NCBI GenBank assembly: GCA_016647705.1
Contig: CM028330.1
Coordinates: 46,342,397-46,406,396, forward strand
From: Eucommia ulmoides
Lineage: Eukaryota > Streptophyta > Magnoliopsida > Garryales > Eucommiaceae
Direction of reading: 5' to 3'
DNA length: 64,000 nucleotides
Of the stretch, positions 5,986-57,216 are shown in pieces; the stretch's first letter is position 1, and each line of letters begins with the position of its first letter. A program made the translations under genes and the position numbers. The notes under the pieces were generated by a model. It was not told the DNA's origin, did no database searches, and was given only the letters and a program-made list of their open reading frames with translations.

Positions 5986-6043
<58 letters not shown>
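5983..6043. repeat. (CA)n(TA)n microsatellite
   Basis: About 20 CA dinucleotides run directly into about 10 TA dinucleotides. It replaces the end of the right LTR of the fossil to its left. Confidence 0.97.
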
Positions 6044-6501: not shown

Positions 6502-6986
6502 CCAGCTCATCCGCTACTACCGTCGCCGTCGTCGCCTCGCCATCTCCGTCGCCTCCGTCGCTATCATCATCTCCTCGAACGAACGTTGCCTTCAGGTACG
6601 GTTTTCACCGATTTGCTCCGTTTCATCTCAGATCTGTAATCAAGAATTGACATACGATTTTCTTCTTTCATTTCATCTTCAGCCCATCCGCTACTGCCGT
6701 CGCCGTCGTCGTCGCCTCGACATCTCCATCGCACCTGCAATTTCCGTTGCCTTCATCGTCTCCTAGAACAAACGCTGCCTTCAGGTAGTATTTTATCCAA
6801 TATCCTTCGATTTTCTCCGATTCATCTCAGATCCAGAATCAAGATTGACCTCCGATTTTCTTCTTTCATTTCGTGGCAGAGGAATCGATCCATATTTTCT
6901 CAGTTCGCCATCCCGTTCCATCGCCATCGGAGATTCGTCATCTCAAGAAATCAACCACCGAATCATTGATTCTCCCCCTTCATCAG
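6502..6986 (+). repeat. Tandemly duplicated leader exon plus intron
   Basis: Two adjacent units (about 6,502-6,682 and 6,683-6,880) share order and sequence. Each has a CATCCGCTACT start, a run of CCGTCGCC-type repeats, a CTTCAG followed by a GTA donor-like site, a TTCATCTCAGATC stretch, and a pyrimidine-rich tract ending in CAG. A third, more diverged exon-like piece follows with CATCAG/GTACCG near 6,986. I read these as repeated 5'-untranslated exon-intron units of the Helitron transcript. The last donor could pair with an acceptor at about 10,200, just before the proposed start codon. Confidence 0.55.
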
Positions 6987-8073: not shown

Positions 8074-9170
8074 AAACACCATGGTGCCATTTGTTTAGTG
8101 TTTATGTTCTAAAACAACTGGGAACAAACACAATATGCAACCTAAGAAAATTTGAATTGTTTTATTCCCAACATTTTTAAAAACAACTTTCTGTGTTTAG
8201 AACACCATTTTCCAAATTTTTGTTACAATTAAAAACGTTTCTGGGAACAGAAGCAGAAGTCTAGAAACAGAATCAATAACAAATGCTACCTCAGTGTCTG
8301 TGATTCTGTTTAATGTTTCTACTTAGCGTTTCTTTCGTTTTTGGGTGTTTAGTGAAACAGAAACACTTACACGCGAGAAATAGAAACATAAACATTGAAC
8401 AACGTTCTTTGATTGAATTCTTTTCTTCTTTTGAATAAGAAGAATAGTTTAAATAACAGTTTCTGTTCCGATTGATCTATGTAACCATTTTATGAACACA
8501 ATGTTGTAAAAAATGCTGATTTTCTCATATTCAGAGCCAAAATCATGGAAAATTGTTTTACTAAAGTATCAAGAATATCTGGAAAAAAATTATGCATTTC
8601 TTTAATTCTTTGATGGCGTTTGTTTAGTGTTTATTTTTAAAGGCAAATCAAGATTGATGGCATTTGTTTAGTGTCTATGTTTCTGTTTAATGTTTCTACA
8701 TAGCATTTATTTCATTTTTGAGTGTTTAGTGAAGTAAAAACACTTACACTTGAGAAATAGAAACAGAAACAGTCCGTCGATAGTGGCCTGATCAGGTATA
8801 TTTTGCTTCTTCGGTGTATGTATTTGAAAAATGCTGATTTTCTCAGATTCATATTATATTCAAAGCCAAAATCATGAAAAATTATGTAAGTGAAGTATCA
8901 AGAATATCTGGAAAAAATTAATCACTTATTTGATTCTTTGATGACGTTTGTTTAGTGTTTATTTTTAAAGACAATTCAGGAATGATGACATTTTTTTAGT
9001 GTCTGTGTTTCTGTTTAATGTTTCTGCTTAGCGTTTGTTTCGTTTTTGTGTATTTAGTGAAGTAGAAATATTTACATGCGAGAAATAGAAACGGAAACAT
9101 TGAACAACCTTCTTTGATTGCATTATTTTCTTCTTTTGAATAAGATGAACAATTTAAAGAACAATTCTTG
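8074..9170. repeat. Cluster of related MITE-like segments
   Basis: At least three diverged copies (about 8,080-8,400, 8,608-8,775 and 8,936-9,100) share a GGCATTTGTTTAGTGTTT-like start, a TGTTTCTGTTTAATGTTTCT block and a CACTTACA(C/T)..GAGAAATAGAAAC block. Similar ends occur in the ankyrin gene introns (26,582-27,017 and near 29,100). They resemble Tourist/Harbinger-type MITEs. No coding capacity is seen. Confidence 0.5.
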
Positions 9171-10217: not shown

Positions 10218-10510
10218 ATGGATAAAATAACTCTTTACGGAAATGTAAATTTCATTATATATCAAGTTTTTAATTTTTTCTTTAACAATGAATCTTGATA
10301 ATCATTTTTGTATTTTCATGCAGAAAACTACTGAATTGAATGAAACGGTTTGGTCAAATCATTCTTTATTAAAAATACTCCATTTAACCATTTAATTTAT
10401 TATTTTATATTTATATACATAAATTTTGACAGGTTGAATTTCTTCAACAAAGAAATGTCCAAGTTGAAGTTCACACCGAACAAGAATACAACGCAATGTG
10501 TATTTCAAGA
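10218..10510 (+). CDS. Proposed first coding exons of the Helitron protein
   Basis: Three short open pieces have splice-like borders, all in phase 0. The first is 10,218-10,244 (ATG, MDKITLYGN, then GTAAAT). The second is 10,324-10,347 (after TGCAG, KTTELNET, then a weak GTTTGG donor). The third is 10,433-10,510 (after GACAG, 26 residues starting VEFLQQRN, then GTAAGG). They lie on the RepHel strand 2.5 kb upstream of the five-exon array, after a good acceptor at about 10,200. I do not recognise the sequence. The assignment rests on phase agreement and position. Confidence 0.4.
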
Positions 10511-10608: not shown

Positions 10609-12420
10609 TTTGATTTTGGGCAAATCCCCTTTAAGCCCTATTACTATTATCTTACTACCACCTAACCCCAATCTAATTTTAATATGTTTTAAGTGCAAGC
10701 TCAACATAACATCTTCTTTTTCAATTTTATAAAATTGAATCAGTTGTTAATCATGTGGTTAGTTCATATTAAGATAAAGTAGAAGTGTTTACTATAAGTT
10801 GTGTGATATAAGTTGGTAATGTAGTTCTACTTCTTTAATAGGTTATAAATTATGATTGGCTTGGATCTTCTTTTAACTGTTTGTGGTAATGCATTTCATT
10901 CTTATAAGGATAAACATTTGGCCATGCAAAAGAAAGAAGCAAACTACAAAGGAAAAGGAAAGGGAAAAGAGAATGTCCCTTCTAATGTGGTATGTATGCG
11001 TTATTTATTAAATAGACGATTGACTATTTTTTAATGATCGAACATGGTTCATTCTATTTCCACACACCATGTTTATCTCATTATTATACTTTGCAATTAT
11101 TTTATCCGTTATTTACAACAACAAAAAAATCTCCTATTTAATCCTAATTAAAATTAATTTTAATAAAATCCTAATTTTATAAAGTTGATTATTGGTACAA
11201 AAAAATTATTCATAATTCATTCTTATTTTATTTTGGGCAAATCACCTGTAACCCATATTACTTTTACCTCACTATTACTTAACCCTAATCTAATTTCACA
11301 CCCTCATATTGAGGTGAGAAATTTATATGTTTAAGTTCAAGCTCAATATAACATCTTTTTTTTTTTTTTTTTTAATTTTATAAAATTGAATGAGTTGTTA
11401 AGCATGTGAAATCTAGGGAATGTGGTTAGTTCATATTAAGATAAAGTAGAAGAGTTTAAGTTGGTAATATAGTTCTACTTCTTTAATAGGTTATAAATTT
11501 TGATTGGTTTGAATCTTCTTTTAACTATTTGTGGTTATATATTTCATTCTTATAAGGAAACAAACTACAAAGGAAAAGGAAAGGGAAAAGAGAATGTCCC
11601 TTCTGATGTGGTATGTATGCGTTATTTATTAAAATTTCTTTATGAATGGTCATAGTATTATTTCGTAATTTTATTAGATAGATGATTGATTATTTTTTAA
11701 TGTTCGAACATAGTTCATTCTATTTCCACACACCATGTTTATGTCATTATTATACGTTGTAATTTTTTTATTTTTTATCTACAACAAAAGACTTGAATTA
11801 CATTAAAAAATAATTTCTTATATTTAATCCTAATTAAAATTAATTTTAATAAGATCATAATTTTATTAAGTTAATTATTAGTACAAAAAAATTATTCATA
11901 ATTAATTATATAGAGAGAATCTTGACCCCCGCTCACTTTTACCTTACTATTACTTAACCCCAATCTAATTTTAAAACATACATTTTACACCCAATGTGAT
12001 AAATGCATATGTTTAAGCGCAAACTCAACATAACATTTTTTCTATCAATTTTCTAAAATTGAATGAGTTGTTAAGCACGTGAATTCTAGGAGATGTGGTT
12101 AGTTGATATTAAGATAAAGTAGAAGGTGTTACAAGGGCATTTGCCCTTCAAATTTGTGTGATATAAGTTGGGAATGTAGTTTTACCACTTTAACAAGTTA
12201 TACATTTTGATTGCTTTAGAAATTCTTTTAACTATTTGTGATTATGCATTTCATTATTTTAAGGATAAACATTTGACCATGCAAAATAATGAAGCAAACT
12301 ACAAAGGAAAAGGAAAGGAAAAAGATAATGTCCCATTTAATGTGGTATGTATACTTTATTTACTAAATTTTCTTTATGAATGGTAATAGTATTATTTCGT
12401 AATTATGTTAGATAGATGAT
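10609..12420 (+). repeat. Three tandem units carrying a lysine-rich exon
   Basis: Three direct copies, spaced 648 and 707 bp, each hold a short exon-like segment between an AAG acceptor and a GTATG(T) donor. They are 10,909-10,989 (27 codons), 11,557-11,610 (18 codons; the copy lacks the first part) and 12,264-12,344 (27 codons). All are open in phase 0 and encode a basic stretch of the type NYKGKGKGKENVP. The sequence around each exon (for example GATAAAGTAGAAG and the TTTAACTRTTTGTG block) is also conserved. They fit as amplified internal exons of the Helitron gene, giving a lysine-rich, probably disordered segment. Their use in mRNA is inferred. Confidence 0.6.
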
Positions 12421-12589: not shown

Positions 12590-13068
12590 ATGAAGGGATT
12601 TCATAATTAATCACATACAGTGAATCGTGATAGCAAAATTACACTTTTCTCTCCTATCTCATTCTATATCCATAACAATCGTGGCTAATTTTTTCCAAAT
12701 CTCTCCGAATCCCACATATCTATCTACCTACACACCATAATCATTGTGCGTACAACTCGAAGCCATTTTATGATCGATCAATTGTTGCCTCGATCTGGTA
12801 CCTTTGATATTGATCTCAGATTCAGATCCGGATCCATATCCAGTTTACGATCGATCTTGATTTCTAATCTTATATCCGTTGATCTATGTGTGTTGATCAT
12901 TGTTCGCGATCCGTCGTCTCCGTCACTATCTCCATCAAGAAAATAAATCAAATCATCACTTAAATTTACAAAATAAAATGTGTTAAAATACTACAAACAG
13001 TCACTAATCTCTAACTATAGTTTGTTATAGTTATTTGATTTTGGTAATTGTGTTACGATTATATATAG
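12590..13068 (+). other. No firm gene; leader-like sequence before the exon array
   Basis: The pyrimidine-rich stretch at 12,640-12,740 is followed by GATC-rich sequence (12,770-12,920). The first intron copy of the five-unit array begins near 12,945. It could hold an alternative start or an untranslated exon. No protein is recognised. Confidence 0.3.
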
Positions 13069-14871
13069 AACATATCAAAAGCTACTATTGCACAACGAGT
13101 TAGAAGGGAACGTGAGAGATTAAATCGTCTAACGATGTGTCCTGCAATTGGTCAATCATCTACAATTGCAAATCCACAAGCACCCATGGTTGTGGACATC
13201 TTCCAGAATCAAACTACTACATTAGTGGTGGATTCCGAAACGAGAGGTGCTGTTCATGAAGAATCTATAGTACAAGATGAACAGGTATGTTTTTCTCTCT
13301 GTGTTTCGAATAAAATGAATCAATAAATCACTTAAATTCCAAAAAAAAATTGTGTTAAATTACTAAAAACAATCACTAATATCTAACTATAGTTTCCTAT
13401 AGTTATTTTATTTCAATCAATAATTGTATTACAATTATATATAGAAAATATCAAAAGCTGCTATTGCACAACGAGCGAGAAGGGAACGTGAGAGATTAAA
13501 TCGTCGAACGACGTGTCCTGCAAACGGTCCATCTATGATTGCAAATCAACAAGCACCAATAAACCAGGACGTCTTTCAAAATCAAACTACCACACCAATG
13601 GTGGATGCTGAAACAAGAGGTGCTATTGATGAAGAATCTATTGTGCAAGATGAACAGGTGTGCTTTTCTCATTCATTGTGTTTCTAAGAAAATGGATCAA
13701 TAAATCACTTTAATTCCAAAAAGAATTTTTGTTACACTACTAAAACATTCACTACTCTTTAACTATCGTTTCCTATAGTTGTTTTATTTCAATTGATAAT
13801 TGTATGACAATTACATATAGAACATATCAAGAGCTACTATTGCACAACGAGCGAGAAGGGAACGTGAGAGATTAAATCGTTGGACGATGTGTCCTGCAAA
13901 TGGTCCATCTATGACTGCAAATCCACAAGCACCCATGGTTGTCGACGTCTTCCATAATCAAATTACTACACCAATGGTGGATAATGAAACAAGAGGTGCT
14001 ATCGATGAAGAATCTGTTGTGCAAGATGAACAGGTGTGCTTTTCTCATTCATTGTGTTTCCAAGAAAATGAATCAATAAATCACTTCAATTCCAAAAAGA
14101 ATTTTTGTTACACTACTAAAACATTCACTACTCTTTAACTATCGTTTACTATAGTTGTTTTATTTCAATTGATAATTATATGACAATTACATATAGAACA
14201 TATCAAGAGCTACTATTGCACAACGAGCGAGAAGGGAACGTGAGAGATTAAATCGTCGGACGATGTGTCCTGCAAATGATCCATCTATGACTGCAAATCC
14301 ACAAGCACCCATGGTTGTCGACGTCTTCCAGAATCAAACTACTACACCAATGGTGGATACCGAAATGAGAGTTGCTGCTGATATAAATTTACCTTCTGAG
14401 GCCAATATTGATGAAGAATCTATAGTGCAAGATGAACAGGTGTGATTTTCTCATTGTGTTTTAAGAAAATTAATCAAAACATTACTTAAATTTCAAAAAT
14501 AAAATATGTAACTACTAAAAACAATCACTAATCTCTAACTATAGTTTGTTACAGTTATTTTAGTTTAATTGATAATTGTATTACAATTATGTATAGAAGA
14601 TATCAAAAGCTGCTATTGCACAACGAGCAAGAAGAGAACGTGAGAGATCAAATCGTCAGATCACGTGTCTTGCTAATGGTCCATCTATGACTGCAAATCC
14701 ACTAGCACCCGCGGTTGTGGATGTCGTTAACAATCAAACTATTACGTCTATAGAGGGTCCAAGAAATATTGATGAAGCTTTCTATGCTGACTCAAACTTA
14801 AATTCTACTCGCAATCTCTGTGAAGAATCCAGAGTGGAAGTTGAACCACCTATTTTATTTGAACGTATATG
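13069..14871 (+). repeat. Five tandem copies of one RepHel exon
   Basis: The exons lie at 13,069-13,284, 13,445-13,657, 13,821-14,033, 14,197-14,439 and 14,597-14,871. Start-to-start spacing is 376, 376, 376 and 400 bp, and the introns are repeated too. Each exon follows a (T)ATAG acceptor and the first four end in GAACAG before GTRTG or GTGTG. Each encodes ISKA(T/A)IAQR(A/V)RRERER followed by NR..(M/T)C(P/L)A and a QAPMVVD-like stretch, then an acidic EESIVQDEQ end. The first four are phase 0-0, so copies can be gained or lost without shifting the frame. The middle copies are nearly identical, including introns, which points to recent unequal exchange. The fifth has a diverged tail that joins the RepHel body. 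Confidence 0.88.
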
Positions 14872-17800
14872 GTAAAAAAAATATCCCTTAATCATTTAGG
14901 TTGTTATGATCAAATGAATGAATCTAATTTTTCTTTGATGCAGGCCAACGTCTGCGGATGAATATCTTGATGTAAGTCAAAATAATGATGACTTAGAAAA
15001 TTTACCAATCAATCATTTGAATGGTATAATTTCTAATCGTCATAGTCTCGGCCAAATGGATGTTGTTTGTACTTACTGTTCAGCTTTGCATTGGATGGAT
15101 GAAAGATTGTCAAAATCAACCACAACGCGTCCTTTATTTGGAACATGTTGTTTACAAGGTAAAGTTAAATTACCTTTGCTAACAATACCACCTCCACATA
15201 TTAAAGCGTTATTTGATGGTGGAGATGCTAAGTCAAAATCATTTCGTCGTTACATTCGAGAGTACAACGCAACAAATGCTTTTACAAGTCTCGGTGCTAA
15301 ATTAGATCAAAGGGTATTTAGCGGAAGAGGTCCAACATAATTTACTATACATGGTGAATTGCGCCATCAAACGGGATCATTGATTCCTGAACACGGACAA
15401 AATCCAATTTACTCTTAATTGTATATTTATGATCCTGCATATGCTCATAGCGTTAGATGTCGGAGAAATCCTCATTTGAGAAATGATGTTTTGCAAATTA
15501 TTCAAGATAGTTTGTTGCAACACAATGCCTTCACGGATAAGTTTCGTCAGGCTCACGCAATTCTAAATCAGATGGATTTGAATATGCAAACTTTGCCTGC
15601 TATTCTCCAGTACAATGCATCTACAGATCGTCGACGGTATAATTTGCCTGCAACAGATGAGATAGCTGTAATATTACCGGGGGATGGAACTCAGTTTTGT
15701 GGTATGAGAGATATTGTTCTACATTTAAGGGGCGGTAATGAATTAATGCGAATTAATGAATGTCATCCGGCTTATTTACCGTTGCACTATGTTTTGTTGT
15801 TTCCTTTTGGTGAGCTTGGATGGGAACCCGGATTTAGACAATGGGATGCGTTAAATGGCCAACATATAGATGATCGATTAACTCAGATGCAATTTTATAG
15901 TTATCGATTATTTGAAAGACCGACCGAGTATTCAACGATTTTAAGGGGTGGAAAGTTATTCCAAGAATTTTTGGTAGATGCTTGGGCTGCAACAGAGCAA
16001 AATCGGTTGAATTACTTTCGACTTAATCAATCAAATCTACGTGGTGAACTATATCAAAATCTTACTGATTTACCATTTGATGGGTTGAGACCTGATCAAA
16101 TAGGTAAGCGAATAGTTTCGCCATCTTCATTTATTGGTGGTCCAAGGTATATGTTTGAAATATTTCAAGATTCAATGGCTATAACGCGGCACAACCATCA
16201 TCCGGACGTTTTTCTAACTATGACTGCAAATCCGGATTGGAATGAAGTAACTTCAACCTTATTACCGCATCAAATGCCAAGTGACCGCCCAGATTTGATT
16301 GCCCGTGTTTTTCAACAAAAAAGAATTGCTTTGATGAAAGAGGTTGAAAACACTCAAGTTTTCGGGAAAAAGGTTGCCCATGTTTTCACAATTGAATACC
16401 AAAAAAGAGGTCTTCCACATATGCACTTGCTTATTTTTCTTGATGGTCCACACAAAATTCGAACGTGTGCTCAAGTGGATCGAATAGTTTGTGCAGAATT
16501 TCCTAACTCAGAAGAAGAACCAGAACTTTTTGAAACTGTCAAGAAATGTATGGTGCATGGGCCATGCGGTGCTCGAAATCCACAAGCTCCTTGCATGGAA
16601 AATGGTAGATGCACAAAAAGGTATCCACGGGTTTGGGCAGATGAAACAACCATGGATCAAGATGGTTATCCAATTTACCATCGTCGTAATGATGGTAAAG
16701 TTTATACTGTTAGGGGACAAGAACTTGATAATAGGGATGTTGTTCCTTACAATCCATACCTTTCAAAAATGTTTGATTGTCATATTAATGTTGAGGTTTG
16801 CGAGGGAATTAGATGCGTGAAATATATTCACAAGTATATCTACAAAGGTGGCGATCGAGGTACATTGACTTTGGGAGAAATAGATGAAATCAAACAATAT
16901 CTTGATGCAAGATACATTGGACCATCAGAAGCGGCTTGGCGACTTTTTAGTTTCCCTTTACATGAAGAGATTCCAACTGTTGTTCGATTGGAACTCCATC
17001 TGCCTGGAATGTATCACGTTCTTTTCAATCCTAATGAAACTATGGAAGCTATTATTTCTAGGGCTCAATTACAAGTATCAACACTAACGGGTTATTTTGC
17101 CTATTGTGCAGCACATGAAGATGCGCGTGCGTATACTTATCAGGAGTATCCCCAACACTTTGTTTGGAATAAAAATGAAAAAGTATTGAAACCAAGACAG
17201 AGGGGATTTGCTATTGGTAGAATGTACTTTGTACCTCCTAATTCGGGTGAACGATTTTATTTGCGTCTGCTATTAACAGTTGTCAAAGGACCAAAATCGT
17301 TTAAGTGTTTACGTACAGTGGACAACTTTGAACATGCAACATTTAAGGCTACATGTGTGGCAATGGGACTCTTAGAAGATGATAGTGAATGGATACAATG
17401 TCTTCAAGAAGCGTCTATAATGAGAACTGGTCATCAGTTAAGGAGATTATTTTGTATACTTCTTACTCAGTGTTCTCCGGTAAATCCACATGAATTATGG
17501 GATCGATTTTCAATGTATATTTGTGACGATATTCCACATAAACTTCGCACATCATTTGCAATTTCTGATCCAATTGAAGAGCAAATTAAAGATTATGGTT
17601 TATATCTTTTGAATCAGCTACTGCAAGAATCAGGCAAAAGTTTAATCGATTTTCCATCAATGCCACTACCGGTAGAAAATTGGAATATGGATGTTGGAAA
17701 TAGGCTAATATTGGAACACAGACAATTACAACATAATGCGCAACAATTGAATGTTGACACCAACATTGAACGCCTTAATGTTGAACAACGAGTTTCTTAT

Positions 17801-19230
17801 GAAGCTATAACTTCCTCTGTATTTGCTAATCGAGGAACTATGTTCTTCCTTAATGGTGGTGCGGGTACTGGAAAAACATTTCTCTATAATACGGTTGCAA
17901 CAAAATATCGTAGTCTTGGTCATATTGTTGTTGCAGTCGCATCGTCTGGTATAGCATCGCTATTGTTAGAAGGAGGTCGAACAGCACATTCTACATTCCG
18001 TATTCCGTTGGATATCCTTGATAATTCAGTGTGTGGATTTAGTAAACAGTCGTTGTATTCCGAGTTGTTCAGGGAAACCAAACTTATCATTTGGGATGAA
18101 GTTCCTATGCAACATAGGTACTGCGTTGAAGCTGTCAATCGCACGTTGCAAGATATTCGCGATAACAAAAAACCATTTGGGGGTATAACCGTAGTTCTTG
18201 GGGGAAATTTCAGGCAGATCTTGCCTGTTATACCCAAAGGAGTCCGCCAACAAATTGTTGCTGCGACATTAAGACGTTCTAACCTTTGGAAAGATGCTAA
18301 TGTCTTGACTTTGGAATTAAACATGCGCTTAAGCAGCACAAATAATAGAAATACTAAGTTTTCAAAATTTCTACTATAGGTAAATTTTAAATATTATTTT
18401 TGTGAATACATATTTACTTATAGATAGTAACTAAATTGGGCATTATTGTTTTAATATTTCAGATTGGAAACAATCCACAAGAAACAATACAATTGCCATC
18501 AACCATACAAAGTTGCCGTAATATGGATGAATTAATATCAACTGTTTATCCAGATCTTAATACACCGGGTATTGTTACTCCTACGTTTCTAACAGAATGT
18601 ACAATTCTTTCTGCGCGAAACAATGATGTAAGTGTTGTAAATTCAACTGCATTAGACAGATTTCCTGGAGATACAATTACATATTTAGCTGCGGATAAAA
18701 TTTCTGAAGATGATGGATCTAATCCTCAAATTACAAATCGGTATCCTAATGAATATTTGAATTCATTAGACCCTCCTGGGTTGCCCCCGTTCAAGTTAGA
18801 TCTGAAGGTAGGTTCTCCAATTATGTTGCTGCGAAATATCGCACCGAATGAGGGGCTTTGTAATGGCACAAGATTGATGGTTGTAAGATGTGCCTCGCGT
18901 GTAATAGATGCTCGAATTTTAATTGGTGAAAAAGTTGGAAATATGGCATTCATTCCCAGAATTTCATTGACACTGTCAAGTACTGAATTTCCATTCCAAA
19001 TGACAAGACGTCAATTTCCAGTTCGTTTAGCGTACGCCATGACGATAAATAAATCCCAAGGACAGTCAGTCAAATTTGTCGGAGTCGACTTGACCACACC
19101 GGTTTTTAGTCATGGCCAACTTTATGTCGCTTTATCAAGATGTACATCTTTCGATCGATTAAGTATCCTACTTCCTGATCCGGGATCTTTATCAACTACG
19201 AATATTGTATATCCTGAAGTTCTGTTATAG
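13069..19230 (+). pseudogene. Helitron RepHel protein (Rep endonuclease plus Pif1-like helicase)
   Basis: This protein nicks, replicates and unwinds Helitron DNA. After the five repeated exons, the body runs 14,944-18,379 and 18,463-19,230 with a GT..AG intron between. Visible are a CTYC/ALHW/CC zinc-binding-like region (about 15,065-15,165), the Helitron N domain, the HUH motif PHMHLL (16,414-16,430) and the two-tyrosine segment YIHKYIYKG (about 16,822-16,848). The helicase has Walker A GGAGTGKT (about 17,854-17,877), Walker B WDE (about 18,091-18,099), NKSQGQS (about 19,047) and LYVALSR (about 19,120). In-frame stops interrupt it: TAA at 15,338, TAA at 15,416 and TAG at 18,377 directly before the donor. 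The usual GGDFRQ helicase motif reads GGNFRQ. The long remaining frames (986 and 256 codons) suggest recent inactivation. Confidence 0.92.
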
Positions 19231-19579: not shown

Positions 19580-21680
19580 GTGCTTCTATAAAATTGAAAT
19601 TGATGTTTTTTAAAATTATTATCGAAGTTTTTTAGAAATGGTGGATTATAGATAGATGTAATAATTTGTTATTATTTTGTTATTTAGGTGGCCACGATGC
19701 TTTCATGCCAGACTATTAAGAAATTAGTTGTACTCAGAACAATTCAGGTAAGTTCCTGAACTTCAATTCAGGTAAGTTCAACTAATTTTGTTTTTCTTTT
19801 TTCAAACATCAATTCTTTGGTTAATGAAATATTGTTACAAACATTACATTGGTTATTTGTCACGTCTGTTATTGTTGTTTTCATGCTTCAATGTGCCAAT
19901 TTTTTATTTTTTTTATTTTTAATTTTGAACATCACTTCTTTACTTAAAGGAATATTATTACAAGCATTACTTTGTTGGTTATTTGTCATGTCTGTTATTA
20001 TTGTTTCCATTTGATAAACAAAGTTGACTATATCAAATTCTCTTTAAATTTTGTAATTCGTCCTTACAGTTTTAAGGTGGATTTCAAAACAATCATTTAT
20101 TATTTTTAGAATTGGTTGTCTTAATTTCAAAAAGTAAGTGAAATCCTAGGTAATGTTGAATAAATAAAGTTTATTTCGTAAAAGTAATTGTGTATTGTTT
20201 GAAATGGTTGAGTTTATTTCACAAAGAGTGGAGAAATTACAAATTATAATATTTTTTCTTTGTCCAAATTTTAAACTGTATTTTATATTGGTGTTTGATT
20301 GTGTTATTATAATTAAATTGTGATAATTTTGCTATTTATTATATGGAATTTTATTCAATGTTGTTAATATTGGCTTACTAATGTAAAAGTTATTTAAAGT
20401 AATAGTTACTTTAATATTTAGCAACCCTTTCGGTAGATATGTGAGCTATTATTTGGATTTTAAAATTAAATGAAAATTTCTTTTATGATAGTATTCTACC
20501 ACTATTTAGTTATAACTAAATAGTGACCAAAAAACAAAAAGAAGAAATTTTTCCTATTTGAGTTACATTAACTATTGAATGAGAATTTTTTGCAATTTTT
20601 CTAATTTACTTTTTCAATTGATTTCAGTATTCACTAATTTCTGTTCATGCAATTCGTACGTCTTCTACATGATTGCCTTTCCATTTCGTTTCAATTTCAG
20701 TTTGTTCAAGTTATCTCTGATTTTAATAACATGTAAGATGATAATGCACGCTCTTTCTTTTGTTTCCAATCACATTTGCTTGATGTTAACAGTGATTTTC
20801 TTACCTATTAACTCGAATGTGAAATTTAATGCTCCTTTTGATATTTGAAGGGGAATTTTTCCTATTTGATTTGCATTAACAATTTCGGTCAATAAATGAG
20901 ACAAATTATAGCTAAATATGTAACTCTTTCAAATTTTTGGTTAAAATAGCAATATCACATATATTATCACAATTTTAAAGTAGTTCAATGAAAATACGTG
21001 ATTTATCAATCAATTTCATTACAAATATCAAAATTTTGTAATAATTTCTTATAGTAAACTTATGATTTAGTTTTTACCATTTAAAAATGTTGTGTTGAAA
21101 ATTTAACGAAACATATTAGCTTTCGCACACAACTATACTCTCATTAAAGATAAAATAATGCCTTTAAATAATGGATAATTTATTTCACTTTTGAGGTCCA
21201 ATTAACATTAACAATTTTTTTCATATTTTATTTGATTTTTATAGCATTAGATTGAATTCTATGATTGCTTAAATATGGTAAATTAGATTACTCTAAATAG
21301 TTGGGGTACCATCATGAGGTAATTGTGTTATTTTTATTGTTTAATTTAATTCAACTTATTGTTGTCACTATATTATTAATTTGGTCTCTTATTTATTTGT
21401 ATTTCTTATTTGTCGATATATATACATATGTCACTTCAATCATTTCAAATTTTGAGTAACAAAATTTATGGTTTTAAAGTATGTTTAAGGTAATTTCCAG
21501 TAGTCCTTAATCGTGGATTTATTTTTTTATTTATTTGTCTTCAATATTATACTAATTTATTTGTTCGTCCAGTTGACAATTATTGTGTTTCTTTTTCATT
21601 GGCCGAGATACATATGTTTGTCACTTCAAATATTTCAAAAATTTTTGAAGAAAATTTATGATTTCCCCATAAAATACGCA
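19580..21680. other. AT-rich Helitron interior, no gene; short duplications
   Basis: A duplication of about 120 bp lies at 19,806-20,010 (GGTTATTTGTCA..GTCTGTTATT in both halves). A block around 21,400-21,660 (TATTTGTCTT, AATTTATTTGT, GTCCAGTTGA, then CACTTCAAATAT) recurs at 22,610-22,770. No convincing exon is seen. Confidence 0.4.
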
Positions 21681-21681
21681 A

Positions 21682-22107
21682 AAAGAGAGGCAAAAACAAT
21701 ATGAAAAGTATGGTAATGTCGGAAGCCAAAGTATGGTCTTAGGAATGAATTGACTGATTTGGACTCTCCAAATATCAATATTTTTGGATCCAAGTCTTCA
21801 TACTGTGAAGACAGCAAGCCATATATGGACCATGATGTAGGGTAAATCTAATACCACCGAATCCACCACTTCAGGATTTTTTTTTATATGGTTATAAAAA
21901 TCAAGTCAGATTGTATTTATTTATTTTTTTCACCTGTTTTTGTTTGTTATGATCGATAGCAAATATTATTATTTGAAGACCAGATGAAAAGTTTACTGAT
22001 CTTGGCATGTGGAAGCCTGAGAAAAGACTCAGTATAGTGTACATTGCCGATGACAATATTGTAGCCACTTGGAGATTAGCACTCAAGGAAACTATTAGCA
22101 TCCCAAG
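21682..22107 (+). pseudogene. Captured fragment of an unidentified plant gene, two or more exons
   Basis: One exon-like stretch ends at 21,841 before GTAAAT. Its last 98 nt encode NELTDLDSPNI and continue through SKSSYCEDSKPYMDHDV. The next, 21,979-22,107, follows an AAG acceptor, ends before GTAAAC and encodes DEKFTDLGMWKPEKRLSIVY followed by a DDNIVATWRL segment. The donor leaves two bases and the acceptor supplies one, so the frame is kept across the intron. That phase agreement argues for true coding ancestry. Upstream, a second frame (KERQKQYEKYGN) is open to about 21,745, so a frameshift near there is likely. I cannot name the gene. It lies inside the Helitron downstream of RepHel, so capture is the simplest reading. 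Confidence 0.55.
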
Positions 22108-23289
22108 GTAAACATGTTTATAGAATGTTCAGAATGTCGCGTAGAAATACCAAAAAAAACTTATAAACTGACCAGTAGTACCCTATTAATGGGTATGTAA
22201 TAGCCACATATATAATATATTGCAATAGTATATAGGTTTTCTCGATTGTAACTTGCATAGTCAAGAAAAGGATTATTGTTTATGACATGATTGTGTTAGT
22301 TATTGTTGTGTTTCATTGTCATTGATCATGTTTGTTAATGTGTTTAAAATTTGGAATGTACTATTTTTTTTAGTTTTTGTTCTGGTACCTGTTGAACAGT
22401 TGCTTCTTGCCTGCTTCCTGTGTTTTTAGAAATATTATCATTTTTTTACTTATGCATTTAAATGAAATCTAATTATTTGTCATTTTTTTCTTTCTACGCA
22501 GTGATAATTTTTTAACAAGATTATTAAAAATGGAGTTATATTTGTAATATTTAGTGTAAATTTCAATTGTTTAATATGCTCTAATGTCGTCTTTAATTTT
22601 TGGTTTAAGAGTCCATGTTTAAGGTAATTTTTCCTAACCATGAGTTGACTTATTTATTTGTTTGTCTTAAATATGATTATAATTTATTTGTCCAGTTGAT
22701 AATTATTATGTTTGATTTTCACTAGACGATATACAAATATGTGCCACTTCAAATATTGAAGACAAATGGAGAAATCTATGGCTTGACACAGTATAATTAA
22801 GGTAAGTTCCAGTAGCCCTGGGTGGTGGGCTCCAGTGTCCTGGGTGGTGGACTTATGTTACTAAATTTATAATGTATATACATAGTTATTATTCGTCGTA
22901 TTGTTAAATTTTATATTGTAGATTATGGTCTTATTGTTGTATGATATGATTGTGTTCGTTGTTTTCGCACTTGATTGATATTGGTTGTTTGTCAGTGTTG
23001 TGTTATAAAACAGGAGTTGATAATTTCGAATGTCATATAAATAGAGGGAGTTATGTCCAATTTTTGTTTTTTTACATTAATTATTGATCGTCTTCAATAT
23101 TTGAATAACTTTCAAATATTGGAGTGTGTCGTATAAACAAAGTAAATTATGTCAATATTTTTAATTTTTTAATGGTACTTATTCGATAGGGAACATGGTT
23201 GATTCATTGCCCAAACTAGAAATGTTTATTTGATGTGAAGCATGGCTGATTCATTGTCCAAAACTAAGCAATATGAATGAAATACAAGT

Positions 23290-23418: not shown

Positions 23419-23816
23419 AGACGGATAATTTGAGAATTTTCAAAATGCTACAAAATCAAGTTGATCATCTATTAAAAAGCTGATCATCAAAAGTAGAAAA
23501 TATTTTTTCTTTATATAATTTTTTAAACTCAACATGATATTAGTCCTAAGGGTTGTTTGGTTTGCAATTTCATTTCCAAAGTACTTGGAATGTATATTAA
23601 TAGGGTAATTTAATTAATTTTAAATAAAAAAAAAATTAAAGTAAAAGATAAAAAAAATTACAAATTGTGGTATTATTTTAATAGATAAATATCTAGGTTA
23701 TTAGATAGTGATATTTAAATGCTTATTATTGTTGATTTTTAATAAAATATGTGTAGAATGTTGTATAAATAGATGAGCTTATATTGGTTTCTTTTAAATT
23801 CAATTTTTTTTCCGCT

Positions 23817-23845
23817 CGTGCCTTCAGGCACGGGTTATGCCCTAG
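23817..23845 (+). terminator. Helitron 3' terminal hairpin and CTAG end
   Basis: The hairpin stem CGTGCC/GGCACG (23,817-23,822 and 23,827-23,832) has a loop of about 4 nt. Ten bases later the element ends in CTAG at 23,842-23,845, followed by T. This matches the structure used for ending rolling-circle transfer in Helitrons. Confidence 0.88.
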
Positions 23846-23887
23846 TATATATATATAGATGGAAGAGAGTGGAGTCACGTACCAAGT

Positions 23888-23943: not shown

Positions 23944-26038
23944 TAGATAGGAAGAGATGAGAGAACCCAAACTATGTATATGTATAGGTGGTACAAACTA
24001 CAAACCACTTAAAATTTCTGTTTCATTTTTTTAAATGGTTGGTGGCTTGATCTAAAGAGGCCACGTTTTCTTCCCTTTTCCATCTTTTTTTTATTCAAAC
24101 ATTATCAATTCCATCGCAAGGCCCTTAACTTTTGTAAGGTTGACTAGACCTTTTATGTTAATTACATAAAGATGACTAGATCTTTTAGGTTAATTATATA
24201 TATAACCTCCAAGATAATTAATTATACATATAATCCAAAATAAATTGATAAATATTTATTAAAAAATCTAAAAATCTTAAAAGTATATTTTTAAATTTCA
24301 AAGTAACCCCTAATTAATTTTTTTAATGTTAACGTATTAATTTCCAAAGTTCTTAGAACTAAATTTTTTAAATAGACTCTTAGAAATTTTAAAGTAAAAT
24401 TTAAATAACACAATAGACTCCATTATTTTTTAAATGTCCTAAAATACAAATAAAAAATATGCACACATAAAATTTGGGTCTTACAGAAAATAATTTATAG
24501 ATTACTGGGGGCATTTGTTTAGCATTTAAGTGTTGGTTGATTAGTGTTTGAACAAAAAAAAGAAATAAAATGTTTAAAAATTATGATGGATTGTGTTACA
24601 TATAAAAAAGTGTAGTGCGACTTTTTTAAAGTAAAAATTGTGGTGAATTAATGTTGAATTTGGGTTATTTACATATTTGAGTTCTAATTATTAAAAAAAG
24701 GGGGCTCAAAAATGTAAGTATGGTTGAAGAAGAAGAGAACAACAAAAGGAAATCTAGAATCTCCACATGAGACATAAGTGTGATTTTTTCTATTTTCTAT
24801 TTTTTAAGGTTTGAAATCTTCAATCTATTCCAAAAAATGGGTTTTGAGTATAAAATTTTTCTGAGAAGTAATAAATATATTTACATTTTGTTGATTATGT
24901 TTATTTGGTCTCTATATATTTCTGCAGTTGGTTTGTTTCAACTCCCGCCTGAAGAAGAAAAAAATTTGAGGTATGATCTTCAATCTTTTGTCGATTTTGA
25001 AAATCTCCATAAGGTAATGAAATATTAAGGTGTTATTCGTTTCTTCAAGTTTTTGAAGTTTTAGTATAATATCCAATATATGGTTTTCCGTTGAAGATTT
25101 AGTTGGATTTTTTTTTTGGGTCATATTTAGTTTGATTTCAAATCTAATGTTTATATGTTGCGTAGACTATCTATAAAGGGAGAGATGAAAAAGAGTATAG
25201 AATATTTGTAATTAACTGCAAGCGAATGATTTCTTCTCTTTGTCGGTCGGTGATGCCATCAACCACCAAACCTATCTTCATTCTAGCAAAATAAACTAAT
25301 GACCGCCCTATGATAGCTCCACGATTGGAACACCCATCAACCACCAACTTTCCATTGAAACCTCGACCAACTATCGATTGCGTTTATGTTCATGAGATTT
25401 ATTTTAAGAAATTAATTATTGTCATAAAAAGTTAAATTTTGAATGCATTTTATGGAAATTTCTGTTTGGCTAAAAATGTTTGTACGTGTAATGAAATTGT
25501 TTCTTAATTAAACATAATAGTACGTTTTGGCATACTGGTATTTTGATCGTATAGTTCTATTATTGTCGAAAATTTTATTTTCATTAGTTTATAATTCATT
25601 TTAAAGATTAAATTCGAGATATAATTATAGAATATTATTGAATTTTTTTTAAGGGATAAAGGCGATTATTCTTCTATTGTTGAATTCGTTTTTATAGTCT
25701 CTATTTTTACTTACATTTTAAATTTTAACAAAATACCATCAGAAAATTCAAAATACTATTAGACACATGTTATATTCTAGCATATATATATAATAAAATA
25801 TAAAATGATGTACTTCCAAACTATATTCTCAAAAGATATTTTTGTATAAAAGATACTATTCAATATTAAAATTTCTTTGCGTAAATATTAAAATTATCTT
25901 AAAAAAATAAAATTATATTTTTCAACCTGAGCCTTCAGACACACACGTGATATACTTTAGTTTTTATAATAAATTAAGGGGGGCAAAAAGAGGCTACATT
26001 GTTTTAGCACATAGAGATGCTATTTTACAGTCCCAGTC
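23941..26038. other. AT-rich intergenic DNA with decayed Helitron-tail motifs
   Basis: The stretch at about 25,460-25,620 repeats the sequence at about 30-170 (GAAATTGTTTCTT, AAACATAATAGT, TTATTATTGTCGA). Two further Helitron-tail-like motifs occur: ACACATGTTATATTCTAG at 25,763-25,780 and a GCCTTCAGACACAC..CTTTAGT segment at 25,931-25,961. No gene is seen. Confidence 0.4.
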
Positions 26039-35623: not shown

Positions 35624-37710
35624 TGTTGGCCTAGTAGAATACTCAAGAGGGGGGGTAAATTGGGTAATTAAAAAATTTATCAGAATAAAATTTGAATAAA
35701 TCAAATAATTAATTTTAAGCTTAAATTAATTATTATCTTTATAACACAGTGGAATAATATGATCAATCTATGTGTACATCCAAATAACAAAAATAACAAA
35801 GTAGTAATGTAGCACACAAAAGATTTATACTGATTCACCAAGTTACTATTGGCTAATCCAGTCCCCCGAGCTCTATGGAGGTCGCACCCACTAAAACTAG
35901 GATTCCTTTAAAGGTAGGAACTAAACCCGTACACCGATTCTTTTACAAACTCAGAATCAACCTTTACAATATCCTTTTCTCAGGCTAAGGAAGAATATTT
36001 ACTTTTTACAGGTTAAAGAATAACCTAATTCTCTTTAACACTTAGGCACAAGAATCAAAACCTCTCAAAACACTCAAACTATCCTTTTCATAGGTAAGGA
36101 TAGAACCTTTACAAATCACTCACAACGCAATTCTTATCTATGAAGAATCACTATTTCAATCTCTTTACAAGAAGAGACTGAAACCCGACTACCCTTAATT
36201 AAATATCCCCAATGGTATTTAACCCGTCACAACTTACCAATACAAAAATTGATAAGAAGTAAATCTTACTGAGAGCTTCTATCACCCAAGATAAACACTA
36301 ACTCAATTAATATCCCAACTAATGATAGAAATACGTGAGATACAAAAATATGATTTCAATAAGATATAGGTAGCAAATTGGAGCACGTAATCAGATTCAA
36401 GAAATTGTTTGAAAAAAATATTTTCTTCAAAAATCAGAAATAATTTCTAAGATCAATTTCCAAATATTGAATAATAAACAAACAATAAGCAATATGGAAA
36501 GATCTCACCCGGAATCCACCGAAAGAAAATAGTATTGCAATGTAACTTCAAATCAGTAGCAACAATGATCAACAAATAATTTTCTTAGAAAAACTCACTC
36601 AATTCTCAATAAAATATCTCTTAGAAAAGCTTACTCAAATGGATAAATTCTGATTTCTCTTGATAATAGATAGATTCTCTCTCTTAGAATGATTAGTCCT
36701 AAATAAAATTCGCAGGTCTATTTAAAGGAAGATGTAATCAACCTTGTAACGGCTAGTTTACATGTATTATGACAAATAAAAGCTCTTATAGACCCCTTAT
36801 ATCATAAGGACTTCATTTAGGTTCAATTTCACTTAAAAACATCTTTCAAATCTCTCAATTAAACCCCCAAAGTATTTCCCAATCTCAATTAATAAGAATA
36901 AAATCTATTTCAAGTACTAAATTGAGAAATATTAATATTTAATGAACCATATTAATAGGATTTAATTAGTATATGAACCATATCTTAAATATAGATAATA
37001 TCCCCTAAATCTATCCCAAATCCCAACAAAAAATAGCTACTTTTGGATATAATCTCGGATTAAACAGTATCCTGAAACAGTGAGTTCGGTCGACTGCCCA
37101 GTTGATTGCCCAATTCAGGTTGTAGCCAAGCTATCGCCGCTGCGTGTATAGGTCGACCATCCGGTTGACTTGTAGATTCAGAGAGTTCTTCCTTCTTTCA
37201 CTGGTCGACTTATCAGTTGACCCCTTGATTCAGAGAGTTCAGCCTTCTTTCACCGGTCAACTCACCAGTTGACTGCTGTCACTGGATCTCTTCTTTGAAT
37301 ACGTTTTTAACTCATTTTCTTTTAAGATTTCGCCCCTTTAACCATTTTCTTCTCTTGATTAGGTCCACTAATATTTTTATATTCCATTTTAGTTATTCAA
37401 AATTATTTCTTCTTATTTCACATAGCAGAAAATAATTTAACTTAATCAAAACACACATAAAAGATAAAATACATTTTGTATCATGTGTGTGTTCCTAAAT
37501 GGGATATTAAGAGTTAAGATTCACCTGAGTTCTTTTCCCTAATTTCTTCAAACTCTTAATTCTTCATCATTATCTTGACATCTTTATTTAGCATCCATTT
37601 AATTTGACGTCTTCATTGTTGGAACTTTAAATCACTGAAACACTTCAATTAAACATTAGTTCCACCAAAACATCAATATTTAATTGTTCATCAAAATTTT
37701 AAGATCAACA
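35624..37710 (-). repeat. 3' LTR of SIRE-like fossil 1
   Basis: This is the direct repeat of 41,844-43,939. Shared landmarks include the G-run near the TGTTGG end, CCCCCGAGCTC, and a cluster of GTCGAC(T)/GTTGAC motifs around 37,085-37,275. A polypurine-like tract (on the minus strand) sits just right of it. Confidence 0.9.
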
Positions 37711-38025
37711 ATCTCTACCTTTTTTATGATGACAATTAACTTTGATGTTTTCTTTAAAATAAAATATAACAACACTTCCCCTAAATCCAAGGACGAGTTC
37801 TTTAACTCATTAAAGCATCATAATGAAGATTTCAATAATGCACAATTTAAAAAACACTCAATTAAGCACATTTTTTTTTTTTTTTTTTAAATTATTCTCA
37901 TCACTAACTTCTCCCTTTAAAAAAAATACTTGATTAAAACACAATTTTAGAATACTTCCCATTAATACAACAAACATCACTAATTTCTCTCCTTTTGTTA
38001 TTTTCAAAAACAAATTTAGGGAGAA

Positions 38026-38506: not shown

Positions 38507-39646
38507 TCAAGAGAAATGGTAGTAAAGTCCAATCAGATTAGTGGCTGGCTGTTGCGGATATGGAACCCATGGCTGAATGATTGGTCTAGGAGTCATCTGC
38601 TGATGAAATGGTGTTGAAGGAACTGCTCCAGATAGCCCAACTCCAGATGGTCCTGCTCTTGATAGTCCTGCTGTAGTAGGTCCTCCAAAGGACTGCTGTG
38701 CTCCATACATAGGATGTCCAGCAAAATGTGGTTGAGCACTATATTGCTGTTGGTAGGTATGATGAGATGACTGCATATATTGAAACATCTGTTTTAGATT
38801 TTTCGTGATTTTTTCGAATCCAACTTCTATGTTTGTATTCATCTAGACCATTTTATTTTCTAGCCCAGTAATCCTCTCATCCATCAAATCCGCATGAATT
38901 CTCAAATCATCAATCTGATCATGAAGAAAGTCCATCTTCTGATCCATGCTTATCTCTCCTTCATTTTCTTCTTCCTCGTCTGCAGCCTGAACTCTCTGCC
39001 TTTTCTAAGTCCTCTTCTTCACCCATCTATTTCCTCTGAACTTATACCCCATCAACGAAGCATTCTGAACATTGATCCATCCTGGTGTGGTTGTCAAAAA
39101 CCTCTGCTCATTAGGATCAACTATTATTCCAAAGTTATCAAATATCTTCTGGAGTGCATCTGCATAGGGTAGTATTCCCGAGGGTTTGTGAACATGATGC
39201 CTCATATGGTCCATCATGATATGGGCTAAGTCCAACTTTCTCCCTTCCACAATTTCGTTCATCAAGTACAAATCAAAGTTATTCACATTAGCATGACTTC
39301 CCCCTCTAGGCACAATCGAATAGGTCAGCACTAAGTGAAGAAATCGATGCTCAATGGACAACGAACCTGCTTTGTCTTCCTCTAAATCAAAATTTTCCAT
39401 AATTGCCCTTCTATTGAAATTTATTGAAAGCCAATGAGGGGTATTATATGGAAATACATCTCCTTTAGGTATTCCCAAAATGTGGCTTAATAATACCGCA
39501 TCAAAACGAATTACTTTTTCTTTAACAAAAGATTTAATCTCAAGATTATTATAGGTCATATTGCTGTAAAACATCCGTACCCATATTGGCATCCACTCTT
39601 CTTTTTGATTGACAAACTCAATCCATCCCAAATTTCTAAAATACAC
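38507..39646 (-). pseudogene. Extra coding remnant of SIRE-like fossil 1
   Basis: A 213-codon stretch (39,005-39,646) has a globular composition (FVKEKVIRFDAVLLSHILGI, then a PHWLSINFNRRAIMENF region). It resembles the putative plant transposon protein domain often carried by non-autonomous LTR elements. A Gln/Pro/Gly-rich stretch (38,507-38,842) continues on the same strand. It is part of a fossil and not a host gene. Confidence 0.6.
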
Positions 39647-40377
39647 TTCAATATCAATGTTTTTTCTCTTTTAACTCAACAAAATCAGTGGGTTTGCAGC
39701 CTAACACCCTACGATTGACAAATTTATCATTGTATTTTCTCTCAACCTCTTCAATTTGAAAGAAAACATTGTCAAACTTAGCCCTATTTGCACGATTCTT
39801 GATTCTAGGCATTTTTTACACATCTAAAGCAACCAATCTAGAATGTATCAATGAACTAAAGCCAAACAACCAATTAATCCGAAAATAATCAAACAGACTA
39901 AGGCCAATCAATAAGAACAGCCGAAACCCTAGAATGGGAGAAGACCAACCTGTTTCGCGAGAGAGAACACGTTCAACACAAAAATTCGAGCCTTAGACTT
40001 ATTGATTTAACCAAAAAATCTTCAAATCTGAGCTGAAATGGATTGATTTTGTGTAATATAGGCTTGGACGAACTTGGGAGATGAAGGGTTTTGAGAGAAG
40101 AAGGGTTTTAGGGTTAGGATGAAATGAAATAAATAAGTCAGGTTTTTTATATCCCGACACGATCAGTCGACTGATTAACTCAGAGTGACTCTCGGTATTC
40201 CAACCTAAAATCTCCGATTGATTGATAAGTTGACTGCTCTCTTCTGTTTTGATCAATTTTGTGTATTTAAACCTAATTTGATCCTTTTAGCTTAAATTTT
40301 ACCTCTTATTTTGATCCACATATATTTTAAAAATATTTACTCACACACACACACGCACGCACATACATTTCAAGCGT

Positions 40378-41843: not shown

Positions 41844-43939
41844 TGTTGGCCCAGTAGAATACCCAAGAGGGGGAGGGGGGGGGTGAATTGGGTAATTAAA
41901 AAACTTATCAAAATAAAACTTGAATAAATCAAATAATTAATTTTAAGTCGAAATTAATTATTATCTTTATAACACAGCGGAATAATATGATCAATCTATG
42001 TGCACACCTAAATAGAAAAAATAACAAAGTATTAATACAGCACACAAAAGATTTATATTGGTTCACCAAGCTACTCTTGGCTAATCCAATCCCCCGAGCT
42101 CCACGGAGGTCGCACCCACTAAAACCAAGATTTCTTTAAAGGTAGGAATCAAACCCGCACACCAATTCTTTTACAGGCTCAAAATCAACCTTTGCAATAT
42201 CTTTTTTTCAAGCTAAGGAAGAATCTCTACTTTTTACAGGCTAAAGAATAACCTATTTCTTTTTAACATTAAGGCACAATAATCAAAACCTCTCTAAACA
42301 CTCCAACTATCATTTTCATAGGTAAGGATGGAACCTTTACAAATTACTCATAACAAAATTCTTATCTAGGAAGAATCACTACCTCAATCTCTTTATAAGA
42401 AGAGACTGAAACCCGATTACCCTTGATTAAATACCCCCAATGGTATTTAATCTGTCATTACTCACCAATACAAAAATTGATAAGAAGTAAATCTCACTTG
42501 GAGCTTCTACCACCTCAGATAAACACTAACTCAATTAATATCCCAACTAGTGATAGAAATACGTGAGATACAAAAATTTAGTTTCAACAAGATATGGGTA
42601 GCAAATTAGAGCACGTAATCAGATTCAAGAAATTATTTATAAAAAATATTTTCTTCAAAAATCAAAAATAATTTCTAAGATCAATTTCCAAATATAGAAT
42701 AATAAACAAACAATAAGCAATATGGAATGATCTCACCCGGAATCTACCGAAAAAAAATAGCATTACAATGTAACTTCAAAATCGGTAGTAGCAATAATCA
42801 ACAAATGATTCTCTTATAAAAGTTCACTCAATTCTCAATAAGATATTTCTTAGAAAAGCTTACTCAAATTGATAAATTTTGATTTCTCTTGATAATAGAT
42901 GGATTCTCTCTCTTAGAATGATTAGTTCTAAATAAAATTCACAGGTCTATTTAAAGAAATATGTAATCAACCTTATAATGGCTAGTTTACTTGTGTCATG
43001 ACAAATAAAAGCTCTTATAGACCTCTTATATCATAAGGACTTCATTTAGGTTTAATTCCACCAAAAAACATCTTTCAAATCTCTTAATTAAACCCCCAAA
43101 GTATTTCTCAATCTCAATTAATAAGAATAAAATCTATTTCAAGTACTAAATTGAGAAACATTAATATTTAATAAACCATATTAATAGAATTTAATTAGTT
43201 TATGAACTATATCTTAAATATAAATAATATCCCCTAAATCTCTCTCAAATACCAACAAAAAATGACTACTTTTGGATATAATCTCGAATAAAATAGTATC
43301 CTGAAACAGTGAGTTCGGTCGACTGCCTAGTTGATTGCCCAATTCAGGTTGTAGCCAACCTATCGTTGCTGCGTGCATAGGTCGACTGCCCGGTCGACTA
43401 GTAGATTCAGAGAGTTCTTCCTTCTTTCACCGGTCGACCTATTAGTCGACTCCTTGATTTAGAGAGTTCAGCCTTCTTTTACTGATCAATTCACCAGTTG
43501 ACTGTTGTCACTGGATCTTTTCTCTGAATACGTTTTTAACTCATTTTCTTTTACAATTTCGCCCCTTTAACCTTTTTCTTCTCTTGATTAGCTCCACTAA
43601 TATTCTTATATTTCATTTTAGTCATTCAAAATTATTTCTTCTTATTTCACATAAGAGCAAATAATTTAACTTAATCAAAACACATATAAAAGATAAAATA
43701 CATTTTGCGCTATGTGTGTGTTCCTAAATGGGATATTAAGAGTTAAGATTCACCTGAGTCGTTTTTCCTAATTTCTTCAAACTCTAAATTCTTTTTCATC
43801 ATCTTGACATCTTCATTTAGCATCCATTTAATTTGACGTCTTCATTATTGAAACTTTAAATCACTGAAACACTTCAATTAAACATTAGTTCCACTAAATC
43901 ATAAATACTTAATTGTTCATCGAAATCTTAAGATCAACA
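41844..43939 (-). repeat. 5' LTR of SIRE-like fossil 1
   Basis: This is the direct repeat of 35,624-37,710. It is next to the primer-binding-like sequence at its left edge, which sets the minus orientation. Confidence 0.9.
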
Positions 43940-44476
43940 AACTCCATTTTGATTAAATCAAGATTTATAAATTCACGAATACTGGCAACTATATTTTGAA
44001 TCGTGAACACTTCTATCACCTAGTTCGAGCTATCAATTGAGGCTATCATTATAGGTGTTCATAGAAGCTCTTCATTTGTGGGAAAATAAAGATTTTTTTT
44101 CTTCGTATTCGTGTGAGGTTGTAGCTTAGACATAAGTATAATTGGTTTGGGTGAGACTGTAATTGAGTATAAAGGAAAGTTACTCAATGGGAATTGTGCG
44201 GGTTTGATCTCATTAGGAAAGCGAATCAGAAGGGTTTAGCAGATTGAAATCTCTGCGAGAGCTTAGGGGAATAGACGTATGGAAGAGTAGTTTGCCGAAC
44301 AACTATGAAATATCTGGTGTCACTTGTTTCTATCCCTATCTATTTATGTATGCTTAGTTTAAATGCTTCTGCAATTAATCAAGATTAAATCAACTAGGCT
44401 TAATTAATTTGATTAAAAAATTTAGAACTACCCAATTTAACCACCTTCTTAGGTAGACTTTTGGACCAACAATTGG

Positions 44477-56930: not shown

Positions 56931-57216
56931 CTTGATCAATCGTCTCCAGGTAGTGGTTGTGAGGAGGATGACACTCTATTAATCGTCTCCTGGTAGTGAG
57001 GAGGATGACGTTGGATCAAATATTTCCAAGTTACGTGAGGAGGATAACGTTCGGTTAATCGGCTCCTGGTGGTGTGGAGGATAACTCTTGGTCAATCGTC
57101 TCTAGGTCAAGTAAATAGTATGATGCTCAGTTAATTATCTCTAGGTAGTAAGGAGGATGACGCTCGGTCAATCATTTCTATTTCAAGTGTAGTTCAAATT
57201 TGTGTAGTATATTAAT

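Follow-up and report, generated by a model that had tools for sequence, protein, structure and literature searches.

The window, a stretch of 64,000 nucleotides from Eucommia ulmoides, contains a Helitron whose RepHel gene lies on the plus strand, with two sets of tandemly multiplied exons (A and B) upstream of the part encoding the Rep and helicase domains. The features of this gene and element are listed below, in which the labels u1 to u6 refer to the unit lineages of six-unit relatives.

10218..10244, + strand: candidate for the first coding exon (ATG), ending in phase 0, placed by inspection only
10433..10510, + strand: candidate exon VEFLQQRNVQVEVHTEQEYNAMCISR, phase 0-0, placed by inspection only
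10909..10989, + strand: exon A1, phase 0-0, Lys/Gly-rich (KGKGKGKENVPSNV)
11557..11610, + strand: exon A2, phase 0-0, with an in-frame 27-nt deletion relative to A1
12264..12344, + strand: exon A3, phase 0-0
13069..13284, + strand: exon B1, 216 nt, phase 0-0, AG before and GT after; lineage u1
13445..13657, + strand: exon B2, 213 nt, phase 0-0, AG/GT flanks; orthologue of u3 in six-unit relatives
13821..14033, + strand: exon B3, 213 nt, phase 0-0, AG/GT flanks; u4 of six-unit relatives
14197..14439, + strand: exon B4, 243 nt, phase 0-0, AG/GT flanks; as B2/B3 plus 30 nt; u5 of six-unit relatives
14597..14871, + strand: exon B5, 275 nt, phase 0-2, AG/GT flanks; leads into the zinc-finger exon; u6 of six-unit relatives
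14944..18379, + strand: zinc-finger-like segment, Rep (HUH) and first helicase part of RepHel; frame with in-frame stops
18463..19230, + strand: last RepHel exon (Pif1 2B domain), its start chosen by inspection of the acceptor
23815..23845, + strand: Helitron 3' end, hairpin and CTAG, then T; from sequence inspection and genome matches

The assignment to a Helitron RepHel gene, made in the initial annotation, is borne out by Pfam matches to Helitron_like_N (PF14214, E=8.2e-52), PIF1 (PF05970, E=5.2e-74) and the Pif1 2B domain (E=1.1e-18), all located 3' of the B array, in which a Rep (HUH) domain is fused to a PIF1-type helicase as in autonomous RepHel Helitrons. Moreover, a search of the PDB returned Helraiser, the reconstructed bat Helitron transposase (PDB 7lcc), with which the window shares the RepHel core; residues 58-972 of the frame 15419-18376 align to Helraiser residues 303-1221 over 915 residues (E=3.4e-189). 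The window copy does not encode an intact transposase, owing to three nonsense codons in its RepHel frame (15338-15340, 15416-15418 and 18377-18379), and other genomic copies have an open first RepHel exon; for instance, in four matches of the window's own type a frame of 1162 residues is open, starting at the zinc-finger exon. RepHel relatives were also sought in viral contigs, where there was no match to the patterns used. At the 3' end of the element, a hairpin (CTCGTGCC TTCA GGCACGGG, one mismatch) is followed by CTAG and T at 23842-23846, which is the Helitron arrangement of a hairpin and CTRR before a T. In the genome, 39 of the 40 scored matches to this end, all except the window itself, stop at query positions 205-219, the predicted end being at position 200 and followed by TA-rich flank. 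The 5' end of the element seemingly lies near 6040, beside an AT run, with no clear TC on inspection.

Other features of the window were recorded in passing. Inside the Helitron, 3' of RepHel, a minus-strand frame at 21904-22128 (within 21656-22128) matches ABC2_membrane (PF01061, E=1.4e-4) at 21.9 bits, which is under the curated cut-off of 26.9, and the neighbouring frame presumably resembles the end of a plant PDR transporter; PDB searches on the 21656-22128 minus-strand region gave no match, and this region is possibly a captured host gene fragment. Segments 28-173 and 25473-25599 are 72% alike, the first carrying GTGCC...GGCA and then CTAAT, which resembles another Helitron 3' end. A putative plant transposon protein of the Transposase_32 family (PF20167, E=8.9e-17) is found on the minus strand at 39008-39670, and four related long repeats, about 68-91% alike, occupy 35624-37715, 41844-43944, 57214-59553 and 61287-63585.

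The initial annotation described five consecutive B exons with a period of about 376 bp that includes the intron, and this is confirmed by Tandem Repeats Finder, which reports an array of intron-plus-exon units at 12937-14745 on the plus strand (period 376, 4.8 copies, 84% matches, score 2178), and by the exon coordinates, whose start-to-start spacings are 376, 376, 376 and 400. Its description of the first four exons as symmetrical and open likewise agrees with the AG/GT flanks, the frames and the stop counts; each of the five exons is open in a single frame, with 1-10 stops in each of the remaining five frames, and in base shuffles of the five exons all five were open in 0 of 20000 trials, a control that ignores the common ancestry of the copies. 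The near-identity of the third and fourth copies, intron included, also holds, since B3 and B4 units are 94.4% identical in the exon and 96.9% in the intron, as against 74-90% and 78-88%, respectively, for the other pairs of units. Insertions and deletions in exon B span 3, 9, 30 or 39 columns, except that 23 columns differ at the 3' end, at which exon 5 uses a different donor; in the intron they are 1, 2 and 4, except that the first intron copy is without its start. The five-exon array in the window is therefore real. Judging from splice-site flanks and reading frames, the units would be spliced as listed, and the predicted splice from 14871 to 14944 keeps the frame (...FERI-W-PTSADEYLD..., ERIWPTSADEYLD) and leads into the zinc-finger-like segment.

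Exon A (DKHLAMQKKEANYKGKGKGKENVPSNV) is a second phase 0-0 exon, located upstream of B and tripled together with its introns, which the initial annotation did not report. Among 20 elements, three A exons are present in 14, two in 4, one in 1 and none in 1, not all of them intact. The leader also contains a tandem duplication (6503-6872), the units of which contain TTCAG/GTA, and a further tandem duplication lies upstream in the same element at 8293-9166. The several separate tandem duplications, namely those of the A exons, the leader and the B array, indicate that the 5' half of the gene grew by them.

Sister elements were collected by a DNA search of the 947 Mb genome with one unit pair; the best 40 of 140 first-look candidates were scored and all 40 were examined, and because candidates were scored best first, the sample favours the window's own type. 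Five units like those of the window are found in 26 elements (window included), six in 11, and other losses in 3. The five-unit calls were made mostly by exon lengths and acceptors, and for L034 (in which unit 1 is short by one base) and L035 by unit-by-unit matching; in one six-unit element, L047, the units are widely separated. As to the remaining three, L044 is without u3 and L046 without u3 and the head of u4, so that unit loss seems to be recurrent, and only u2-u5 are present in the fetched stretch of L048. The copy-number variation among sister Helitrons that the initial annotation proposed to look for is thus observed, with five or six units as a rule, fewer in single elements and four in one element of a sister family. 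None of the 40 elements scored, the best of 140, is single-copy, so single-copy sisters are ruled out for these elements and the array survives the comparison that the initial annotation had proposed as its test. Taken as a whole, that interpretation stands in part: the RepHel identity, the exon phases and the variation in copy number hold, and it overlooked the threefold upstream exon and the three nonsense codons.

The same survey bears on the suggestion that the array arose in assembly or is a stretch in decay that is not spliced. In favour of this, the window's RepHel frame has three nonsense codons, and many sister units are decayed as well; among 185 unit exons, a set taken without u2 of six-unit elements and without elements with four detected units, 42 carry stops, 11 have no AG, 7 have no GT and 7 are frameshifted. 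Unit arrays, some of them partial, nevertheless occur at at least 39 other places in the genome, which rules out an assembly artefact; 12 of the 26 five-unit elements have every unit open, AG at all acceptors and GT at each of the donors checked (the first four), and the open 1162-residue frames described above belong to this same type. Decay or artefact is therefore an extremely improbable account of the array. The 24 young arrays compared differ by a mean of 2.0%, whereas units within the window array differ by up to 22% in the intron, and most of the array is thus older than the burst of young arrays.

A second search, using the zinc-finger exon, in which 150 of 587 candidates were scored, revealed additional groups, with identities of about 80%, 68-70% and 64%; long open frames were found in many of them. 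Open RepHel frames, about 1160-1200 residues in length, are numerous in several related Helitron groups, which suggests recent activity in the genome. The sister family was read upstream in one element only (L050, from the 80% group), over 3.5 kb, where one A exon and four B-type units are found. The first three B exons of L050 are 108, 180 and 201 nt long and phase 0-0, with the donors CAACAG/GTGTG and GAACAG/GTGTG (alternative donors being possible in unit 1), and the last, of 92 nt, ends in ATATG/GTAAAA like that of the window. Unit heads of L050 and the window are alike (NISKAAIAQRARRERER in unit 2) and the tails have diverged. The third unit of L050 is recurrent; among 150 scored matches to it, 77 lie outside the 40 arrays of the window's own type, two of these matches being pieces of one unit. 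The amplified exon array is a family trait, and one element of the sister family shares it.

The change between six and five units can be followed closely. When 66 units, taken from 12 of the 40 elements, are placed in a tree, they fall into six orthologous lineages that extend across elements, and the five-unit type is nested among six-unit elements, nearest to L037 and L038; the lineage absent from it is u2. When the majority bases are compared between five-unit elements (24) and six-unit elements (10), a single crossover accounts for 45 of 46 diagnostic sites, the exception being column 54; the five-unit intron agrees with the intron preceding u2 up to column 148 and that of u3 from column 172, which is 2 nt before the exon. 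The unit tree and the diagnostic sites argue that the five-unit type arose from the six-unit type through one crossover that deleted u2. In all 14 elements having u2, its acceptor is TG or TA, so a crossover between columns 148 and 172 would have replaced a unit without AG by one with AG. Even so, u2 need not be simply dead, since an in-frame AG three bases inside the exon, present in 6 of 7 u2 copies (L036 is without it), is a possible acceptor through which u2 could still splice; no claim is made that the acceptor fault drove the change. The six-to-five transition is a nearly base-resolved exon loss within a transposon gene that later multiplied.

Whether the array is maintained by selection was approached through divergence, for which the initial annotation had proposed a comparison of exon with intron and an estimate of dN/dS. 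The first 60 nt of the window B exons are less variable than the introns (7/60 against 38/129, p=0.0096); exon positions beyond these 60 nt are more variable (66/153 against 38/129, p=0.019); pairwise dN/dS among window units is 0.42-0.81. With changes in single elements as the neutral yardstick for differences between subfamily majority sequences, the array gives N8:S6 between subfamilies against N361:S85 among singletons (p=0.039), a weak test that rests on 14 changes, and for RepHel, taken as control, the ratios are N16:S23 against N598:S169 (p=1.5e-6; 14 of 20 elements, window included). The unit count omits L034, L044, L046 and L048, in which the scan gave neither five nor six units, together with L035, six unit sequences that are frameshifted or divergent and one that is short. 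For the 20-residue head alone, the selection test is non-significant (p=0.36 and 0.24). All 11 unit majority sequences are open and contain no stop, as against 25 stops among 446 singleton changes. Changes between subfamilies are rarer in exons (14/1158) than in introns (23/650, p=0.0014), a contrast given little weight because 13 of the 23 intron changes lie in the crossover-bearing intron. Altogether, the selection tests on the array lean weakly to constraint.

These results can be set against a neutral ratchet, according to which the 5' part of the gene is prone to duplication, phase 0-0 exons are no more than tolerated in a disordered region, and unit number has no function. The further tandem duplications at 6503-6872, 8293-9166 and the A exons are what such a process would leave behind, beyond its head the exon is more variable than the intron, and the signals of selection on the array are weak; however, unit heads are conserved between the two families while the tails are not, the majority sequences are free of the stops that singleton changes introduce, insertions and deletions within exons are multiples of three, and both families carry multi-unit arrays. 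On this evidence, a purely neutral origin of the unit number is regarded as quite unlikely.

As to what a unit encodes, an AlphaFold2 (AF2) model of unit 4, for which the five window units were supplied, has a helix at residues 4-23 (pLDDT about 85) and nothing confident after it, the blocks after residue 20 falling below 60 (mean 57.7, pTM 0.27); in this model each B unit consists of a basic helix and a disordered linker. No Pfam family reached the cut-off for the four units scanned (B1, B2, B4 and B5), and a PDB search with B4 returned no solved structure at the cut-off, with Helraiser not listed at E<=10. A likeness to the STPR domain, which consists of 23-residue repeats, was considered and rejected, because the window period is one exon of 71-91 residues and because of the same Pfam result; the literature search found no paper combining Helitron and STPR. 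Helraiser residues 10-86 themselves form an Arg-rich tandem repeat (offset 42, 21/35 identical, above the 0.414 maximum of 5000 shuffles), followed by a segment at residues 115-202 that matches the zinc-finger-like segment of the window, so that both proteins have a repeated basic segment before the zinc finger; Helraiser differs in that about 115 residues lie ahead of its zinc-finger segment. Homology of the two repeats was nonetheless rejected, since in local alignments of four B units with the Helraiser repeat the score is equalled or exceeded in 43 to 208 of 500 shuffles, a likeness no greater than that of composition.

In the available part of one study, Helraiser proteins truncated of their N-terminal 489 residues show no binding to single-stranded DNA, and a putative nuclear localization signal (NLS) is placed at the Helraiser N-terminus (PMC4778049). 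The available text of another report describes the first 110 residues of Helraiser as disordered and presents FENG8, the transposase of the active wheat Helitron Xuan-Feng, with RepHel in seven exons and an N-terminal domain of 638 residues, in which a zinc-finger-like motif lies at 311-337 and the first 264 residues are predicted to be disordered save for two helices (PMC13286980). FENG8 resembles the window gene as a plant RepHel split by introns with an enlarged N-terminal domain bearing a zinc-finger-like motif; an exon array or protein repeat is unmentioned in that text (PMC13286980). Tandem repeat blocs in rice Mothra Helitrons vary in number between orthologous copies, for which unequal crossing-over or slippage was proposed, but those repeats are in non-autonomous elements and, in the part of the report available, no repeated exon or reading frame is mentioned (PMC4683698).

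The initial annotation regarded such amplification as not known for Helitron proteins, a remark that has to be qualified in view of the Arg-rich tandem repeat of Helraiser; at the level of exons, no array was found in the literature searched. Host genes offer familiar examples of a symmetrical exon copied along with its intron, the copies often being spliced in a mutually exclusive manner; here the gene belongs to a transposon. The literature searched on Helitrons and exon duplication contained no report of a symmetrical-exon array in a Helitron gene, and that on internal exon duplication in transposases or transposons likewise yielded none. Repeated Arg-rich N-termini in Helitrons are known already, and what is new, as far as no report was found, is a symmetrical-exon array in a Helitron gene with four to six units, in two families and with a near base-level record of unit loss.

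The reading that we favour, and consider probable, is that a symmetrical exon encoding a basic helix and a linker with an acidic end was multiplied with its intron in the RepHel gene, that unit number shifts by unequal crossing-over, and that the helices add contacts. A phase 0-0 exon for a basic helix, a disordered linker and an acidic end would have been multiplied along with its intron, the product being a series of basic helices before the zinc finger and the Rep nuclease-helicase; unequal crossing-over between units would alter their number, and as the exon is phase 0 at both ends, the gain or loss of a whole unit keeps the frame. The observed parts of this reading are the array, its phases, its occurrence in sisters, the six-to-five change with its breakpoint and the open majority sequences. 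If the N-terminal domain of Helraiser, required there for binding to single-stranded DNA, is taken as a guide, the helices may contribute further contacts, with such DNA or with a partner. Alternatively, the units could serve nuclear import or protein contact rather than DNA binding, the repetition providing avidity for a host partner. The basic motif of the B unit, IAQRARRERER, and the putative NLS of Helraiser (PMC4778049, available part) are consistent with this proposal, but one NLS would do in our judgement, so five copies need another reason, and we hold it to be somewhat unlikely.

Helitron transposases are known for their Rep-helicase core, and to our knowledge the long N-terminal extension of those of plants is little understood. 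With the multiplied exon, this extension consists of countable exon units, the number of which differs between subfamilies of one genome, so that its role becomes testable through unit number. A broader proposal is offered tentatively and is, on balance, doubtful: the Helitrons of this plant would keep an array of phase 0-0 exons, each encoding a single basic-helix unit for binding, and change its count by recombination between intron-exon units without harm to the frame, the unit with an altered acceptor having been swapped out and the five-unit type having spread (26 of 40 elements, in a sample that the query favours). If this is true, unit number would be a heritable setting of the binding strength of the transposase.
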